Part shown: piece after piece, positions 11,712 through 64,000 of the stretch
How the letters are laid out: the number at the start of each line of letters is the position of its first letter
How positions within the stretch are numbered: position 1 is the first letter of the stretch
Source: Bacilli bacterium
GTDB taxonomy: Bacteria; Bacillota_I; Bacilli_A; ML615J-28; CAG-698
Direction of reading: 5' to 3'
DNA: 64,000 nucleotides
Assembly: GCA_017617065.1 (NCBI GenBank)
Contig: JAFZWP010000010.1
Coordinates: 1 to 64,000, forward strand
Notes under the pieces: generated by a model
The model's input: only the letters and a program-made list of their open reading frames with translations
The model's database searches: none
Told to the model about the DNA's origin: nothing
Made by a program: the position numbers and the translations under genes

Positions 11712-12974
11712 TTAATTAACTGTTACATCTTTAATTAGTGCATATTTAGCACCACTATAATTATTGATATTTGATACTTCTTTACTCAAAGACATTCCAT
11801 CTAGTGCTTCTTGTAAATTAGCACTGAAAGAGAATCCACTAACCGGAATTACATCTTTACCATCAAAATATAAAGCTAGTCTTACTTCGCCACCTAAATA
11901 ATTTTGATAAGCATCGACTTGAATTCCTGACATATCATATATTTCTAAATATGGTTTTGTTTTAAATGCATCAACTGATTTCTTACCTTTTGATAAGCAA
12001 ATCTTATTTAGATTACCAGTTGGGTTTTCGTTAATGTAACATGCATATCTATTATTTCCATAATATGACTTGACAATACCATTTTCTACTAAAGTTCTTT
12101 TAGCAAGTCTTACACCATCCACATCAAAATAATCATATTTAGTGTTAGCATCTAGGCTAATACTAATTTTATTAGAAGTTAAAACTTCCCCTAAATTCTT
12201 TAGATTTGAATGATTATAAACGTCTGCATAATGTAAGTTATCAATTACTTCATATGCTAATTCCATTAAATCTTTATCGCGTAAGATGATATTAGATTTA
12301 CTAACACCTTCAAGTCTAACTGCTTTTCCACGATTATAAACATCTCTAATAGCACCTTTAGCATCACTTGCTGCTTTTTCGTAGTTAAGTTCATTATATT
12401 CAAACATACGATATAGTTCTGTCTTTAGGTTTTCACCATAAAATGATGGAATTGCTTCAATACTAATCTTAAAAGTTTTCTTTTTATAATCTACACCGTT
12501 AGAGTTAACAATGTGAGTAGTTACATCATCAAAGAATAATTCTAATGAATTAAAACGAGCCACTTCATTAGACTGACTAAAGAATAATTTAGCCATCTTA
12601 GTTAAGATATCAAATGGAGCTTCTTCTAGTGCTTTATAAGCCATGCTCTTCTTTTTATCACCTTTAACTAGGCTATATTCTTGATTCTTAATGAAGCTTG
12701 CTTCATAGATTGCTTGATCAATTAGTTTTTCTAAATTAGCTTTAGATTCTTCATGGCTTACAATGAAACTAGCTTCACCCATTAATGTTTTACCTTCTAC
12801 ATTACTTTTAACATAAACTGTTACTTGGTCTTCGGTTGTAGAGACGCGACGAACAGTTTCTAATTTTTGTAAATCATAGAATTGTTGATAGGAATCTTCA
12901 ACTGTTTCAATAATACGATACTGGCTAACACCTTTAGATACTAGAGATTTAATTATTTTATTAATTCTTGACAT
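11712..12974 (-). CDS. TldE/PmbA-family protein
   Basis: A 420-residue partner-type subunit of the TldD/TldE metalloprotease. It shares the family fold, for example an N-terminal segment on misacylated-type strand motifs and a C-terminal GGEVRLALYFDGKDVIPVSG, but lacks the HExxxH zinc motif. That identifies it as the non-catalytic TldE/PmbA half. In E. coli the TldD-TldE heterodimer trims unstructured peptides such as microcin precursors. The gene follows the TldD-like gene by one base, so the pair is co-translated. A second pair lies at 60795-64000. Confidence 0.88.
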   Translation of the reverse strand: MSRINKIIKSLVSKGVSQYRIIETVEDSYQQFYDLQKLETVRRVSTTEDQVTVYVKSNVEGKTLMGEASFIVSHEESKANLEKLIDQAIYEASFIKNQEYSLVKGDKKKSMAYKALEEAPFDILTKMAKLFFSQSNEVARFNSLELFFDDVTTHIVNSNGVDYKKKTFKISIEAIPSFYGENLKTELYRMFEYNELNYEKAASDAKGAIRDVYNRGKAVRLEGVSKSNIILRDKDLMELAYEVIDNLHYADVYNHSNLKNLGEVLTSNKISISLDANTKYDYFDVDGVRLAKRTLVENGIVKSYYGNNRYACYINENPTGNLNKICLSKGKKSVDAFKTKPYLEIYDMSGIQVDAYQNYLGGEVRLALYFDGKDVIPVSGFSFSANLQEALDGMSLSKEVSNINNYSGAKYALIKDVTVN

Positions 12975-12975
12975 A

Positions 12976-14382
12976 TTAACCTATTTTAACCTCCGCTTTA
13001 ATACTAGCGCCACCATCAGATACTCTTACCCATTCTTTGTATCCTTTTCCACAAGATCCAGATCCAATAATATCGAATGTATCTTTAGCTACCATAGAAA
13101 TTGATTCAAGTAAATCGATAACATATCCACTCATTACAACTGGGGATACAATCTTACCGCTAAATTTACCATTAACGATTTCTCTACCATATAGGGCTGT
13201 ACATTGGATTCCCCAGTTTTTAGGGTCTTCCATACCATTATTAGTAATCGCAATATAGTATCCATAATCTACACTAGCAATCATTTCTTCTAAAGTCTTA
13301 TCCTTTTTATCAAAGAATGTGTTTGTCATTCTTGTATATGCTTTATGCTTATATGATTCGCGTCTACCATTTCCAGTTGGCTTAACTCCTAAAATTGAAG
13401 CAGAAACTGCATCACAAATACCGCTTTGAAGAATACCTTTTTTAATAATAACTGTATCTTGAGCTAGTGTTCCTTCATCATCAAAGAAATATGAAGCACT
13501 AGAAACAGTTGCTTTAGCTCCATCGTGCATTGTTACATGTTTACTTGCTACTCTTTTACCCATGTATTCTGCACCTTTTGCTCTATCCTTAACAAATTGG
13601 TCCATTTCTAGTCCATGGCCAAATGCTTCATGAGCGATTAAGCCTGTAATTGAAGGGTCAGTAATAATTGTATATTTACCAGGAGTAGGCATAGAGGCGC
13701 TGCATAATTCTAAAGCTAACTTAGCAACATCCACAATTGATTCTTTTAAATGACTAAATGCATAATCAGAATCATTAGTTCCAAATCCATCATATGCATA
13801 TTTAATGTTATCATCTTTACCTACTAATACAAATGTACGTGGATTAATCCATGTATAGAATTGTTCAAGGTCGCGATCAGCTGATATATACATCTTTGAA
13901 AATTCAGAAAATTCAATACTAGCACGAGCATTAATTACAGCTTTATCAAAGTTTGCACCAATTTTTACTACTTCATCTAGTTTAGCAAGGATTTGTTCGT
14001 CACTTAATTGTGTACCTTTTGTTAAACGTTTGAATTTCTTAGTTAACTTTTCTTCTGTAATTTTAGTAGCCTTTAAGTCTTCAATACCTTTATTTTGGTT
14101 AACCATTAATTCAATTTCACTAACGATTTTGTCGATTAGGTTAGCTTTAATTTCATTAAATGAATATTCATAATATTTATGATCTTTATAAACTCTAACT
14201 ACAAATCCAGCTTCTGTTATATTAGATGGAGAAATACCAGATATTTTTGTATCAACCATATAATTTTTACTAACTACATCAGTAGCTAGAACTGAAGCAA
14301 ATTCAAATTTTTCATCTAGTCTATTAATAAGTTCTTTTAATAATTTCTTTTTTTGTTTTAAATATGGAGAAAATTTATTCAT
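12976..14382 (-). CDS. TldD-family metalloprotease subunit
   Basis: A 468-residue protein of the modulator-of-DNA-gyrase/TldD family. It has the zinc motif HEAFGHGLEMD (HExxxH), then GKRVASKHVTMHDGA, YFFDDEGTLAQDTVIIKKG and RRESYKHKAYTRMTNTF, all typical of TldD. It should form the catalytic half of a heterodimeric peptidase with the next gene. The start codon overlaps the stop of the upstream small membrane protein as TAATG. Confidence 0.93.
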   Translation of the reverse strand: MNKFSPYLKQKKKLLKELINRLDEKFEFASVLATDVVSKNYMVDTKISGISPSNITEAGFVVRVYKDHKYYEYSFNEIKANLIDKIVSEIELMVNQNKGIEDLKATKITEEKLTKKFKRLTKGTQLSDEQILAKLDEVVKIGANFDKAVINARASIEFSEFSKMYISADRDLEQFYTWINPRTFVLVGKDDNIKYAYDGFGTNDSDYAFSHLKESIVDVAKLALELCSASMPTPGKYTIITDPSITGLIAHEAFGHGLEMDQFVKDRAKGAEYMGKRVASKHVTMHDGAKATVSSASYFFDDEGTLAQDTVIIKKGILQSGICDAVSASILGVKPTGNGRRESYKHKAYTRMTNTFFDKKDKTLEEMIASVDYGYYIAITNNGMEDPKNWGIQCTALYGREIVNGKFSGKIVSPVVMSGYVIDLLESISMVAKDTFDIIGSGSCGKGYKEWVRVSDGGASIKAEVKIG

Positions 14383-58495: not shown

Positions 58496-58510
58496 ATATT
58501 CTTGCTTTTT
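58481..58510. terminator. Bidirectional terminator
   Basis: A 14-bp inverted repeat (58481-58494 with 58497-58510), part of which forms the loop, with A- and T-runs on both sides. It overlaps the stop codons of both convergent genes (plus at 58495, minus at 58509). Confidence 0.9.
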
Positions 58511-59480
58511 ATAATTTCAATTGTTCATTCCTTAATACTTTGCCAATTACTTCATTATACACAGCACTATCTTCTATTTTGGAGATAGTAGTTATTCTTT
58601 TTCCTCCATCTTTGCTTGACCCACCACAATGATAAATACAAAAAGAATCAAATCCATAATCTAAAACGATATATCTATCGTGAAATGACTTATTATTCTT
58701 AATAAGTGTTATGCTCATTCCAGTATCCAATATAAAGTCGTTTAATACTACGATGTTTAAACCATCATTAGCTAGATTGTCAGTAATAAGAATAATTGAT
58801 ACTGCCTTAGTACACGACTTTAATAAATATAGTGTTTTTATGTTAATGTAATCATCTATTATAAAAATTGTTCTTTTGGTCATTTTATATATAGTTTTAT
58901 ATGCTACATCTGATTCTATTCTCTCACCTTCTTTAATCAGAAAATGTTTATATTTTGATGAATCATAAAAATTATCCATAACTATCCCTAGTTTACTTTT
59001 AATGATTTCATTTTCTTTAACAACTTCATTTATAGCCTTAGTATTATCGCTAACTTGAATGGATAATTTCAAAACCTCGCTACTATTAGTTAATCCATCA
59101 TTACATATAATATAATCCTTCATTTGTTTAAAAGCATCAATTAAAGCAATGCTTTGTTTTGTGGCTAAATCCCCTTTTAAGACTGTCATAAGCATATAAA
59201 CACCTTGTTCAGTAAAAGCATATGGTAAATAAGCTCGGCCTCCGACTCCAGAAGACCAAAAACCTGAGGTCACAAATTGTGACCTCACGATATCTTTCAA
59301 TTCATCATATGTTAATTGAAATCTATATCTATTTGGAAATTTATCTTTATTTCTATTCACTTGTTGATTAAATGCCTTCGTTTCATATCCATATATTCGC
59401 GCCAAATCAAAATCCAACATTACTTTCATTCCTCTAATAAAATGAATCATTTCTTCAATACTTTTTTTATTCACTTCCAT
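58509..59480 (-). CDS. ORF6N-domain protein fused to a C-terminal PLD-like domain
   Basis: A 323-residue cytoplasmic protein. The N-terminal ORF6N DNA-binding domain has MKVMLDFDLARIYGYETK, FPNRYRFQLTYDEL, and LPYAFTEQGVYML. A short coiled-coil linker follows. The C-terminal ~130 residues match the one at 190-1071: IFIIDDYINI, then FHDRYIVLDY (HxRxxxxD) and IYHCGGSSKDGGKR. ORF6N domains are common in phage antirepressor-type genes, but no phage structural genes are nearby. Function not known; the shared C-terminus suggests both proteins do the same job with different DNA-binding ends. Confidence 0.87.
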   Translation of the reverse strand: MEVNKKSIEEMIHFIRGMKVMLDFDLARIYGYETKAFNQQVNRNKDKFPNRYRFQLTYDELKDIVRSQFVTSGFWSSGVGGRAYLPYAFTEQGVYMLMTVLKGDLATKQSIALIDAFKQMKDYIICNDGLTNSSEVLKLSIQVSDNTKAINEVVKENEIIKSKLGIVMDNFYDSSKYKHFLIKEGERIESDVAYKTIYKMTKRTIFIIDDYINIKTLYLLKSCTKAVSIILITDNLANDGLNIVVLNDFILDTGMSITLIKNNKSFHDRYIVLDYGFDSFCIYHCGGSSKDGGKRITTISKIEDSAVYNEVIGKVLRNEQLKL

Positions 59481-59655: not shown

Positions 59656-60792
59656 TTATAGATATTTCTTTAAATCATTTACTTTGTTTAATTCTTCCCA
59701 AGGAAAACCATCTCTTCCAAAGTGGCCATAATTTGATGTTGCACGATAAATTGGTCTACGTAAATCAAATGTTTCAATAATTCCTTTAGGAGTTAAGTTA
59801 AAGTTTTCTTTAATTGCTTTTAAGATGATATCTTCTGCTACTTTACCCGTGCCAAATGTATTAACACCAATGCTTGTTGGGTCAGCTACACCAATTGCAT
59901 AACTTAAGCTTACTTCACATTTATCAGCCATACCAGCAGCAACAATATTCTTAGCAATATAACGAGCCATATAAGCAGCACTTCTATCAACTTTAGTTGG
60001 GTCTTTACCACTAAATGCCCCACCACCATGGTGAGCTACCCCACCATATGTATCTACGATTATCTTTCTACCTGTTAAGCCTGTATCTCCTTTTGGTCCA
60101 CCAATTACAAATCTTCCTGTTGGATTAACATAAAATACAGTCTTATCATCTAACAAGTTAGAAGGTATTACATATTTAATTACATTTTCAATAACAAAGT
60201 TTCTTAATTCTTCCATTGATACATTTTCATTGTGTTGAGTTGATACAACTACATTATCAATTCTTTTAACTTTGCCATTTACATACTCTACAGTTACTTG
60301 ACTCTTTCCATCAGGTCTTAAGTAATCAACCATTCCACTCTTTCTAACTTCAGTTAATCTTTTAGTTAGTTTATGAGCAAGAGATATTGATAGAGGCATA
60401 TAGTCATCACATTCATTTGATGCATATCCATACATCATACCTTGATCACCAGCTCCATCCTTGTCTACACCTAGCGCAATATCGCTAGATTGTTCATCTA
60501 GAGCAACCATTACAGCTAAGTTATCAGCATCAAAACCAATCTTACCACGGTTATAGCCAATATCGTTAACTACTTTTCTAACCACTCCTTGTACGTCCAC
60601 ATATGCTTCGGCTGTTACTTCACCCATAACAAATACTAGTCCTGTTGTAGCACATACTTCTACAGCGCTTCTAGCATTTTTGTCTTGAGCAAGTAATTCA
60701 TCAAGTATTGCATCAGCTATTTGGTCACATACTTTATCAGGATGGCCTTCAGTAACTGATTCACTAGTTACTAGTTTAATAATATCTGCCAT
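59656..60792 (-). CDS. metK: S-adenosylmethionine synthetase
   Basis: A 378-residue enzyme that makes SAM from ATP and methionine. Signature motifs are [16 protein letters not shown] at the start, [12 protein letters not shown] in the middle and [19 protein letters not shown]. Length is normal. It follows the tldE gene by two bases, so it is expressed with that operon. No SAM riboswitch is seen in the two-base gap. Confidence 0.97.
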
Positions 60793-60794
60793 TT

Positions 60795-62114
60795 TTATTC
60801 ACCTGATATTGCTACATTCTTAAATAGAATTGAAGGAGCGCCAGTTCCTCTTTCAAATGTTAAGTCAGAACCAATTTCAAAAATGTTATCATTTAACATC
60901 TTATAGAAATTACCAGCCATAACGATCAAAGTAACTGGACGGCCAATCTTACCATCTTCAACTACAAATCCAGCACACTTAAGGTTAAAATCACCACTGA
61001 TTGGATTAACACCTGCATGTAAGCCATCAAAATCAGTAATTAGTAAACCATTATTTAAATCTTTTAATAATTCATCTTTTGATTTCTTTCCTGGAACGAT
61101 ATATGTATTCATTCCTCTTACTCCTGTATCAGAAGCATTACCAGTAGACTCTGTGTTAAATGCTTTAGCAGTTTTTAAATTATGAATTAGTCCTTTAAAT
61201 ACACCATCTTTAACTAATTCTTTAGTGTAGCATGCTACGCCTTCAGAATCGAATGGTGTTTTATGTAAAACATCTTCATGATCAATTAGTGGATCATCAA
61301 TAATACTTACCATTTCATTAAATACTTTAGTATTTTCTTTACCAGCTAAAAATGCCATTTTACGTAGAGCAGCTTCGCCATTATACATTGTTTGGAATGT
61401 AGAGAATAGGGAATTCATTGCATCATTCTTAACAACTACATCATATGTTCCACTCTTGATTGATTTAGCGTTTAAGTGATCTAGAGCATCTTTAGATGCT
61501 TCTTTTATTACTTTATCAAAATCTAAATCTGCTAAGTTAACCTTTTGGACAATCTTAAAGCTTGTAGATGCTTGGCCATTTTCTGTTGCTACAACTTCAG
61601 CTACAATTGCACAGCCTGATCCTTTTCTACTTAAGTTTAATCCTTTAGAGTTAACTATTTTCAAAGCATTAACTTCTTCTACATACATACAGTATGGAAC
61701 TGCTACAATTCTCTTATCAACTGCTAGAATACTCTTTTCTAACTCAATTGCTTTTTCAATTTTATAAGATGTTGGATAATTGGCAATATCACTTTCTTTT
61801 TCTTCTACAGTTGGATATGATTTACTTCCACCAAATATTTCGCATACTTCTTTAGAAGTAATGAAACTTGCGTTTTGTTTTAATTCATTTAGGATTTTAT
61901 CAACGTCTTCATCTAAGTTTTCTAATTCTAAAGTAGCAAGTTTATCGTTATATATAGCTTTGATAACAGCTGAAGTTACATTAGATGAATTATTCTTTTC
62001 TACTGCACCATTAGCGATTTGAATAGTCAATTCTTCGCTAGTTGATTCATTAACTTGAATATCGCTAAAGCCATATTCTTTTGCTTTCTTAATTAGTTCT
62101 TGGTAGTTAAGCAT
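60795..62114 (-). CDS. TldE/PmbA-family protein (second pair)
   Basis: A 439-residue non-catalytic partner of the TldD/TldE peptidase. The start [20 protein letters not shown] and the C-terminal [29 protein letters not shown] are typical. There is no HExxxH. Its start overlaps the stop of the preceding TldD-fusion as TAATG. It differs from the pair at 11712-14382, which is closely spaced in another operon. Confidence 0.9.
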
Positions 62115-64000
62115 TATTTTCTACCTCCTACAGTAATATTTTGTACCCTTATTGTTGGTTGACCAACATTAGTTGGGATAGATCCGCTTAAAGATCCACA
62201 CATTCCTGTTGCCATTGCAAAGTTATCATTAGCAATCATATCTACATTCATTAATACTTCAGCACCAGATCCAATTAAAGTTGCGCCCTTAATTAGAGTA
62301 GTAAGTTTACCATCTTTAATTAAGTAGCCTTCTTGAACAGCAAAGTTGAATTCACCAGTTGAAGGATTAACACTTCCTCCACCCATCTTTGCTGCAAAGA
62401 ATCCATCTTTAACACTAGCGATGATTTCTTCTTTAGTATATTTACCAGGAGCAAAGAATGTGTTTGTCATACGTGAAGTTGGAGAATATTTGTATGATTC
62501 TCTTCTACCTGATCCTGTAATTGGATGATTCATTCTAAATGAATTACGATAATCTACTAAATATGATTTTAAAACACCATTTTCAATTAAAACATTACGA
62601 TGAGTTAGATTACCTTCATCATCACAATTTAATGATCCCCATTCACCATTCATTGTTCCATCATCAACTGCTGTTACGCAATCATTAGCAATCTTTTGAC
62701 CAAGTTTTCCGCAGAATACTGATAAGCCTCTTGCTACACTAGTTGCTTCTAGTGAGTGAACACATGCTTCGTGTAAAATAACACCACCAAATGCATTATC
62801 AATGACTACTGTCATCTTACCACCTGCAATATCTTCAGCGCTTAACATAGCAACAGCATTTTCCCCAACTTTCTTTCCTAAAGCAGTGAAGTTATAGTTA
62901 TCAAATAATTCATAACCTTGATTCATACCATATTGTTCACCAGCTTGTTGAGAATCGGTACCATTAGAAGCAATTGCCATTTGGGCAATACGAATGTTAC
63001 ATCTATTGTCATGAGCAAATGTACCATTTGAGTTAACAATTGTCACATCTTGAACGGCTTCAGTTAATCTAGTTATTGATTGAATAACTCCTTCTACCAT
63101 AGCTGCATCATTTGCTTTTTTCATTAATGCTACTTTTTCTTCTAACTTTACATCATTTGGATGTTTCTTTATCTCTACAATCTTAGGTAGTTTAGCTTGT
63201 TGTAGTGGAGCTACTTCAACCTTCTTTTCTCCATTAAAGCTTGAAGCTAACTTTTTAGCTAAAGCTAACATTTCTTCAAATGATGTATTATTAGTATAAC
63301 CATATACCTCTTCTACACCATTTAAGATTCTAATACCAACACCATGAATGTTTTCACTATTAGCATTAGCAAGTTCTCCATTAGCCATTTGATAAGTGCG
63401 ATGGAATGAATCTTCAATAAATAATTCTCCAAAGCTAGCACCAGTTGCTAAGCATGCTTCCAAAATAACTTTGTATTGTTCTTTTACTTTATCATTATCT
63501 TCTAACCAGTTAAGACTCTTATTTAATCTATCCATACTTTCCTCTTTTCCTAAAATATCAGCGATTTCTACGCTTCCACCAGGTGTAACTTCAACTCCGC
63601 TTAAAGCCACTCTAAGTACGCTATAAACTTGACCGCTTTTAGCACCTAGCATTTCTGCGACTTTCAAAGTTGCCGCATGTAAATTATCTTCTTTCCAATC
63701 TTTAATATCATTAAATACTGGAATAGAAGCTTTAATTACAGTTCTAGCTACATCTAAATCAATCTTAAATTTCTTGTTTAAATATAATACTGGATCAAAC
63801 TTCTTAAAGTTAACAATGAATTTAACTTTATCTTCAATTTCACTAAAGATTTCAATTCTACTTTGGAGAAGCTTACCAAACTTAACATAGTCATATTTAC
63901 CAGCTATACTGCTCGACTCAAAAAATGGAGTAGCATATTCCATAAATTTATCAAATGGTAATTCTTTGATGTATTCACCATTTAACCATCTCATCTTCTT
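62114..64000 (-). CDS. Glutamyl-tRNA synthetase (C-terminal part) fused in frame to TldD (partial at window end)
   Basis: The frame is open to the window edge. The ATG at 63994 is internal, with Lys-Lys before it. The first ~160 visible residues are the C-terminal anticodon-binding domain of GluRS: MRWLNGEYIKELPFDKF, FGKLLQSRIEIFSEIED, DNLHAATLKVAEMLGAKSGQ, LRVALSGVEVTPGGS and ILGKEESMDRLNKSL. Near residues 162-170 (about 63487-63511) it changes, without a stop or Met, to a TldD: KEQYKVILEACLATGASFGEL, the zinc site LHEACVHSLEA (HExxxH), RRESYKYSPTSRMTNTF. The TldD part is full length. The upstream GluRS catalytic part is off the window. The Gly-rich neighbours of HExxxH (usually HEACGHGLE) have changed to Val and Ser. 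Confidence 0.88.
   Translation of the reverse strand, partial: KKMRWLNGEYIKELPFDKFMEYATPFFESSSIAGKYDYVKFGKLLQSRIEIFSEIEDKVKFIVNFKKFDPVLYLNKKFKIDLDVARTVIKASIPVFNDIKDWKEDNLHAATLKVAEMLGAKSGQVYSVLRVALSGVEVTPGGSVEIADILGKEESMDRLNKSLNWLEDNDKVKEQYKVILEACLATGASFGELFIEDSFHRTYQMANGELANANSENIHGVGIRILNGVEEVYGYTNNTSFEEMLALAKKLASSFNGEKKVEVAPLQQAKLPKIVEIKKHPNDVKLEEKVALMKKANDAAMVEGVIQSITRLTEAVQDVTIVNSNGTFAHDNRCNIRIAQMAIASNGTDSQQAGEQYGMNQGYELFDNYNFTALGKKVGENAVAMLSAEDIAGGKMTVVIDNAFGGVILHEACVHSLEATSVARGLSVFCGKLGQKIANDCVTAVDDGTMNGEWGSLNCDDEGNLTHRNVLIENGVLKSYLVDYRNSFRMNHPITGSGRRESYKYSPTSRMTNTFFAPGKYTKEEIIASVKDGFFAAKMGGGSVNPSTGEFNFAVQEGYLIKDGKLTTLIKGATLIGSGAEVLMNVDMIANDNFAMATGMCGSLSGSIPTNVGQPTIRVQNITVGGRK

Follow-up and report, generated by a model that had tools for sequence, protein, structure and literature searches.

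Published work on TldD/TldE places the active site inside the shell of a heterodimer, which unfolded N-termini enter via a narrow channel (PMC5810440). The complex reportedly acts on such N-termini rather than on surface loops, and in E. coli it matures a modified peptide (PMC5810440). We analysed a 64,000-nucleotide window from a draft genome of the Bacilli (contig JAFZWP010000010.1; its genus is one of as yet uncultured bacteria of the gut), in which the reading frame of a glutamyl-tRNA synthetase (GluRS) gene, gltX, continues into that of a TldD metallopeptidase. To our knowledge, it is unusual in bacteria for an essential single-copy synthetase to be permanently joined to an unrelated enzyme, and a literature search found no paper describing a GluRS-TldD fusion. 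The reading we favour, at a probability of roughly 75%, is a genus-specific fusion of operon genes that would yield a ~105 kDa polypeptide in which both enzymes, made 1:1 and under predicted SAM control, perform their own jobs.

The fused gene and its operon

The gltX::tldD gene is a single 939-codon ORF on the minus strand (C13:64933-62114) of a 123,632-base contig that extends past the window edge; 628 of its codons lie within the window (62114-64000), without a stop. Its ATG, outside the window at C13:64933, is preceded by TTTAGGAGGAAGAT, and AGGAGG forms the Shine-Dalgarno (SD) sequence 5' of it. Coordinates of the features discussed are collected in the table.

Features of the gltX::tldD locus. 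Positions refer to the window unless a contig is given; residues are those of the fusion.
Feature	Position	Strand	Basis or remark
gltX::tldD, part in window	62114-64000	-	codons 312-939 plus stop; Pfam domains of both enzymes in a single chain
GluRS anticodon-binding domain, residues 330-473	63515-63946	-	Pfam PF19269, 100.9 bits
Linker EDNDKVKEQYKVI, residues 478-490	63464-63502	-	junction DNA compared with 13 relatives
TldD metallopeptidase part, residues about 491-939	62117-63463	-	Pfam PmbA_TldD 1st/2nd/3rd
HExxxH zinc motif as HEACVH, residues 721-726	62756-62773	-	sequence
tldE, PmbA-like partner, 439 aa	60795-62114	-	strong SD of its own
metK (presumed), S-adenosylmethionine synthetase, last gene of operon	59656-60792	-	2-bp gap to tldE
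Candidate internal start in GluRS end, TldD frame	63533-63544	-	GAGG 63544-63541; ATG codon 467, 63535-63533
SAM riboswitch with attenuator, source genome (G000)	C13:64978-65063	-	RF00162; just outside window
SAM riboswitch with attenuator, second species (G001)	C8:75105-75191		RF00162

Pfam domains of both enzymes are found along the one chain, as expected from the in-frame fusion proposed by the first-pass annotation. Following the contig past the window, as that annotation had advised, located the GluRS catalytic domain (tRNA-synt_1c, PF00749, residues 3-316) ahead of the anticodon-binding domain (Anticodon_2, PF19269, 330-473), and the GluRS half is complete (residues 1-477), with HVGG and KLSKR, read from the sequence, as its HIGH- and KMSKS-type class I motifs. 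An Anticodon_2 search of the genome returned the fusion as the only gltX; the GluRS half is therefore presumed to be active, there being no other GluRS in the genome. The TldD half was rightly called full-length, since all three PmbA_TldD domains (PF01523, PF19290 and PF19289, each above cut-off) are present at residues 503-563, 590-697 and 705-937. It matches E. coli TldD (5nj5_A) at E 7e-78 in phmmer and keeps the zinc ligands, in HEACVH and in the C-terminal Cys of GMCG. The altered glycine near HExxxH had been considered an oddity of the fusion; this did not hold, as HEACVH and G[MLF]CG are shared by the fusion and all 25 TldDs of the family, and HEACVH was accordingly rejected as a fusion-specific feature.

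The partner gene tldE does follow the fusion, with a one-base overlap at the fusion's stop in both species found to carry it. The next gene we take, from its sequence, to be metK, and the order gltX::tldD, tldE, metK is identical in both genomes. In both, the operon is directly preceded by a glutamate dehydrogenase gene (L003:7118-8488, minus strand). In the source genome an ORF6N-domain protein is encoded between metK and a 310-aa ORF (window 58509-59480, minus strand); the gene is absent from the corresponding place in the second species and is likely an insertion. The window also holds a second, unfused TldD/TldE-type pair (11712-14382, minus strand; one protein of 468 aa with HEAFGH and one of 420 aa), and TldD-type activity is therefore not necessarily tied to the fusion.

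A SAM riboswitch sits, in both fused genomes, between a promoter-like TTGACA-17-TAAAAT and the ATG of the fusion. The RF00162 aptamers score 45.0 and 45.8 bits, just above the gathering threshold of 44.4. The aptamer 3' strand ACGATGG is predicted to pair with the terminator-arm sequence CATCGTG before the 3' arm is made, and the competing terminator, GACTCATC-GTG-GATGAGTC-T7, ends just 5' of the SD (predicted -14.5/-13.6 kcal/mol), so that antiterminator and terminator are, by prediction, mutually exclusive. In the sister genus g5 (G005) the riboswitch instead lies directly 5' of metK, away from gltX, and no RF00162 match at threshold was found in the remaining gltX leaders examined. Hence this genus has also acquired or relocated SAM control at the front of its gltX::tldD-tldE-metK operon. 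A literature search found no paper on an S-box before GluRS. A second S-box match in the source genome (C24:13106) was set aside, having no recognisable metabolic gene just downstream; its contig is small, and the assembly is ~5% contaminated.

Distribution and origin of the fusion

The first-pass annotation had called for a related genome with the same fusion, and a second species of the genus carries it. A search of 28 family genomes found the fusion in these two only. At order level, Anticodon_2 was matched in 39 of 43 genomes, with an open frame of more than 600 aa only in the two fused ones. No third case was found in 395 class genomes at E <= 1e-190 or in 392 phylum genomes at E <= 1e-185, two samples that overlap and with E limits that a strongly diverged fusion could escape. 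Among the class Anticodon_2 matches listed, no other GluRS frame exceeded about 535 aa, and no plasmid record matched at least 80% of the fusion. An "open frame 1294" in G020, considered as a triple fusion, proved on reading to comprise three distinct ORFs, namely gltX, one for a 282-aa protein, and tldD. In two genomes of genus g7, a gene for a protein of 282-289 aa is located between gltX and tldD (L060:2711-3559 and L061:2462-3331).

Elsewhere in the family the two genes are unfused, and over half of the family genomes have gltX directly 5' of tldD and tldE. In G018 both genes share one frame, and the join reads WL-TAA-GAG-GTA-GTT-ATG where the fusion has WL-GAA/GAG-...; the TAA and three codons separate gltX from tldD. 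Both genes also share a frame in G005 and G016, with two stops between them. The junction stretch measures 93 bp in the fused genes as opposed to 96 in G018. We place the junction near codon 478 (window ~63502), in line with its initial placement; it contains neither stop nor start, is conserved in the relative, and no alternative frame gives back two genes, as had been stated. The fused genes lack both the gltX stop and the tldD start. The ribosome site is lost in the source genome, while the second species retains GAGG at the position of that of G018. Near the expected tldD start in the source genome there is neither an ATG nor an SD, the closest in-frame ATG being codon 467, in the GluRS end.

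In a GluRS tree the fused pair forms one clade (100/100), nested in a clade (98/95) with these unfused genera. Because gltX and tldD of the relatives are separate but usually adjacent, and in G018 share a frame, we infer that the stop, the tldD start and its ribosome site disappeared from a gltX-tldD-tldE operon once, in this genus. Both genes would already have been adjacent and in the same frame when the gltX stop was lost, by substitution or a 3-bp deletion, in the ancestor of the genus; decay of the start codon of tldD and of its ribosome site would have followed.

Junction, selection and alternative readings

AlphaFold joins the last helix of GluRS, the linker and the first helix of TldD into a single predicted helix without a break (residues 150-184 of the source-genome fragment, 463-497 of the fusion), with ten-residue mean pLDDT of 84-96, and the junction helix is likewise uninterrupted in a full-length model of the second species. 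Mean pLDDT of the models is 65 and 58: they are confident around the junction and in neighbouring domains and, owing to shallow alignments, weak elsewhere. Foldseek on the models re-finds only TldD and GluRS. An N-terminal extension on TldD is plausible, since the homologous part of E. coli TldD (5nj5_A) starts only at residue 42 of the crystallised chain, by analogy with which extra N-terminal residues would be tolerated.

Purifying selection acts on both halves. In the fused pair dN/dS is 0.057 for the GluRS part, 0.18 for the TldD part and 0.21 for tldE, compared with 0.086, 0.095 and 0.138 in the unfused sister genus g5; TldD is thus somewhat less constrained in the fused pair (0.18 vs 0.095). 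For TldD domain 1, adjoining the linker, the values are about 0.49 (fused) and 0.10 (g5), on small counts, which could reflect relaxed constraint. Decay of TldD was considered and rejected: despite the raised domain 1 rates, distances to outgroups rise only modestly and show no collapse.

That an assembly or base-calling error deleted the stop codon is scarcely credible, even though the source genome is a 24-contig draft with 5.11% estimated contamination. The second species, a Bacilli MAG from yak rumen (JAGCUR010000018.1) and the only other genome of the genus examined, has the same uninterrupted fusion (940 aa, 89% identical), separately assembled on a 227-kb contig. The two fused genes differ at 399 nucleotides (79/51/269 by codon position) with no frame-disrupting indel, at dS 0.61 and dN 0.072; moreover, the junction preserves the frame, and the start codon is gone as well as the stop. 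With a diverged species also carrying the uninterrupted fusion, a shared assembly error is not credible, and the observation is confirmed as more than chance or assembly error, on two carriers of which one is metagenome-assembled and the other a draft. A real fusion is compatible with dual products, in which a start at ATG467 also yields a free 473-aa TldD and loosens the 1:1 tie. GAGG lies five bases 5' of this ATG in both fused species, where close relatives mostly have GAAGAA followed by ATT/TTA-type codons, and GAG makes up only about 5% of the Glu codons of the gene. However, the SD duplex (-5.9 kcal/mol; median -6.9 for first ATGs of window ORFs) is equalled at 9% of internal ATGs, and Met at this position is also seen in unfused GluRS, the total being 6 of 71 distinct rows. 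Special synonymous constraint around the codon was sought and rejected, conservation there being within the ordinary range (permutation P 0.62). Some additional free TldD might be made in this way, although we consider it doubtful.

Two further readings concern what becomes of the chain. Cleavage by a protease near the linker, releasing two ordinary enzymes, would suit a charged and poorly conserved linker (59% identity between the fused pair over residues 479-495), but the predicted continuous helix offers no loop, and the reported substrates of TldD/E itself are unfolded N-termini (PMC5810440), making such cleavage unlikely. Alternatively, the fusion could be adaptive, bringing the peptidase to the site of Glu-tRNA synthesis, for example to serve a SAM-controlled, Glu-tRNA-dependent modification or turnover of peptides. 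Retention of both fusion and riboswitch across two species at dS about 0.6 speaks for this, as does the peptide maturation by E. coli TldD/E (PMC5810440). Yet no peptide-maturation genes were seen within the operon, no other sampled lineage has fused gltX and tldD, and the ancestral operon suffices to explain the juncture; we regard adaptive coupling as improbable. Equally improbable is a purpose-made bifunctional enzyme, whose synthetase half would position TldD/TldE at sites of Glu-tRNA use or tie its level to translation demand, with SAM setting both amounts. The functional tie between peptidase and translation raised in the first-pass annotation is not supported beyond shared synthesis.

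The genus-specific operon fusion remains our preferred reading. Its product would most likely be a single ~105 kDa chain in which a short helical linker connects GluRS and TldD, both of the ordinary kind, the TldD half pairing with separately encoded TldE. Both enzymes would keep their usual jobs while tethered, the change being 1:1 synthesis, and plentiful SAM should shut off gltX::tldD, tldE and metK through the riboswitch. One-chain translation, activity of both halves, TldE pairing and SAM control are here deduced from sequence and models, and the data demonstrate no function other than those of the two enzymes taken together.

Comparison with known systems

The fusion may not mean a new function; most likely it reflects simple stop loss between neighbours. 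It has outlasted at least one speciation, and represents a clean natural case of adjacent operon genes fusing, since both stop and start persist in sister genera. It also amounts to a test by nature of how well GluRS bears a C-terminal load of 450 residues, and a riboswitch 5' of GluRS would subject an enzyme essential for tRNA charging to control by SAM.

Residues 3-472 match the bacterial GluRS model TIGR00464 (gltX_bact) with 495.8 bits against a cut-off of 289.95; unlike bacterial GluRS, the chain runs from the anticodon domain into TldD without a stop. Like E. coli TldD (PDB 5nj5; PMC5810440), the TldD half has three PmbA_TldD domains, HExxxH, the C-terminal Cys and an adjoining tldE, but it carries GluRS on its N-terminus and HEACVH in place of the glycine form, and scores 290 bits with the equivalog model NF008006, below the 513-bit cut-off. 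The leader resembles S-box (SAM-I) attenuators (RF00162) in combining an aptamer with alternative antiterminator and terminator, and departs from their usual placement in preceding gltX::tldD rather than directly preceding a methionine or SAM gene. The nearest parallels are presumably the GlnRS/YqeY fusion (NF011291) and the eukaryotic glutamyl-prolyl-tRNA synthetase EPRS (PMC8511952). These likewise join a class I synthetase of the same subgroup to another domain, the partner there being a tRNA-related domain or another synthetase and here a metallopeptidase. The architecture is thus new, assembled from known enzymes, and is most simply regarded as a retained operon fusion.
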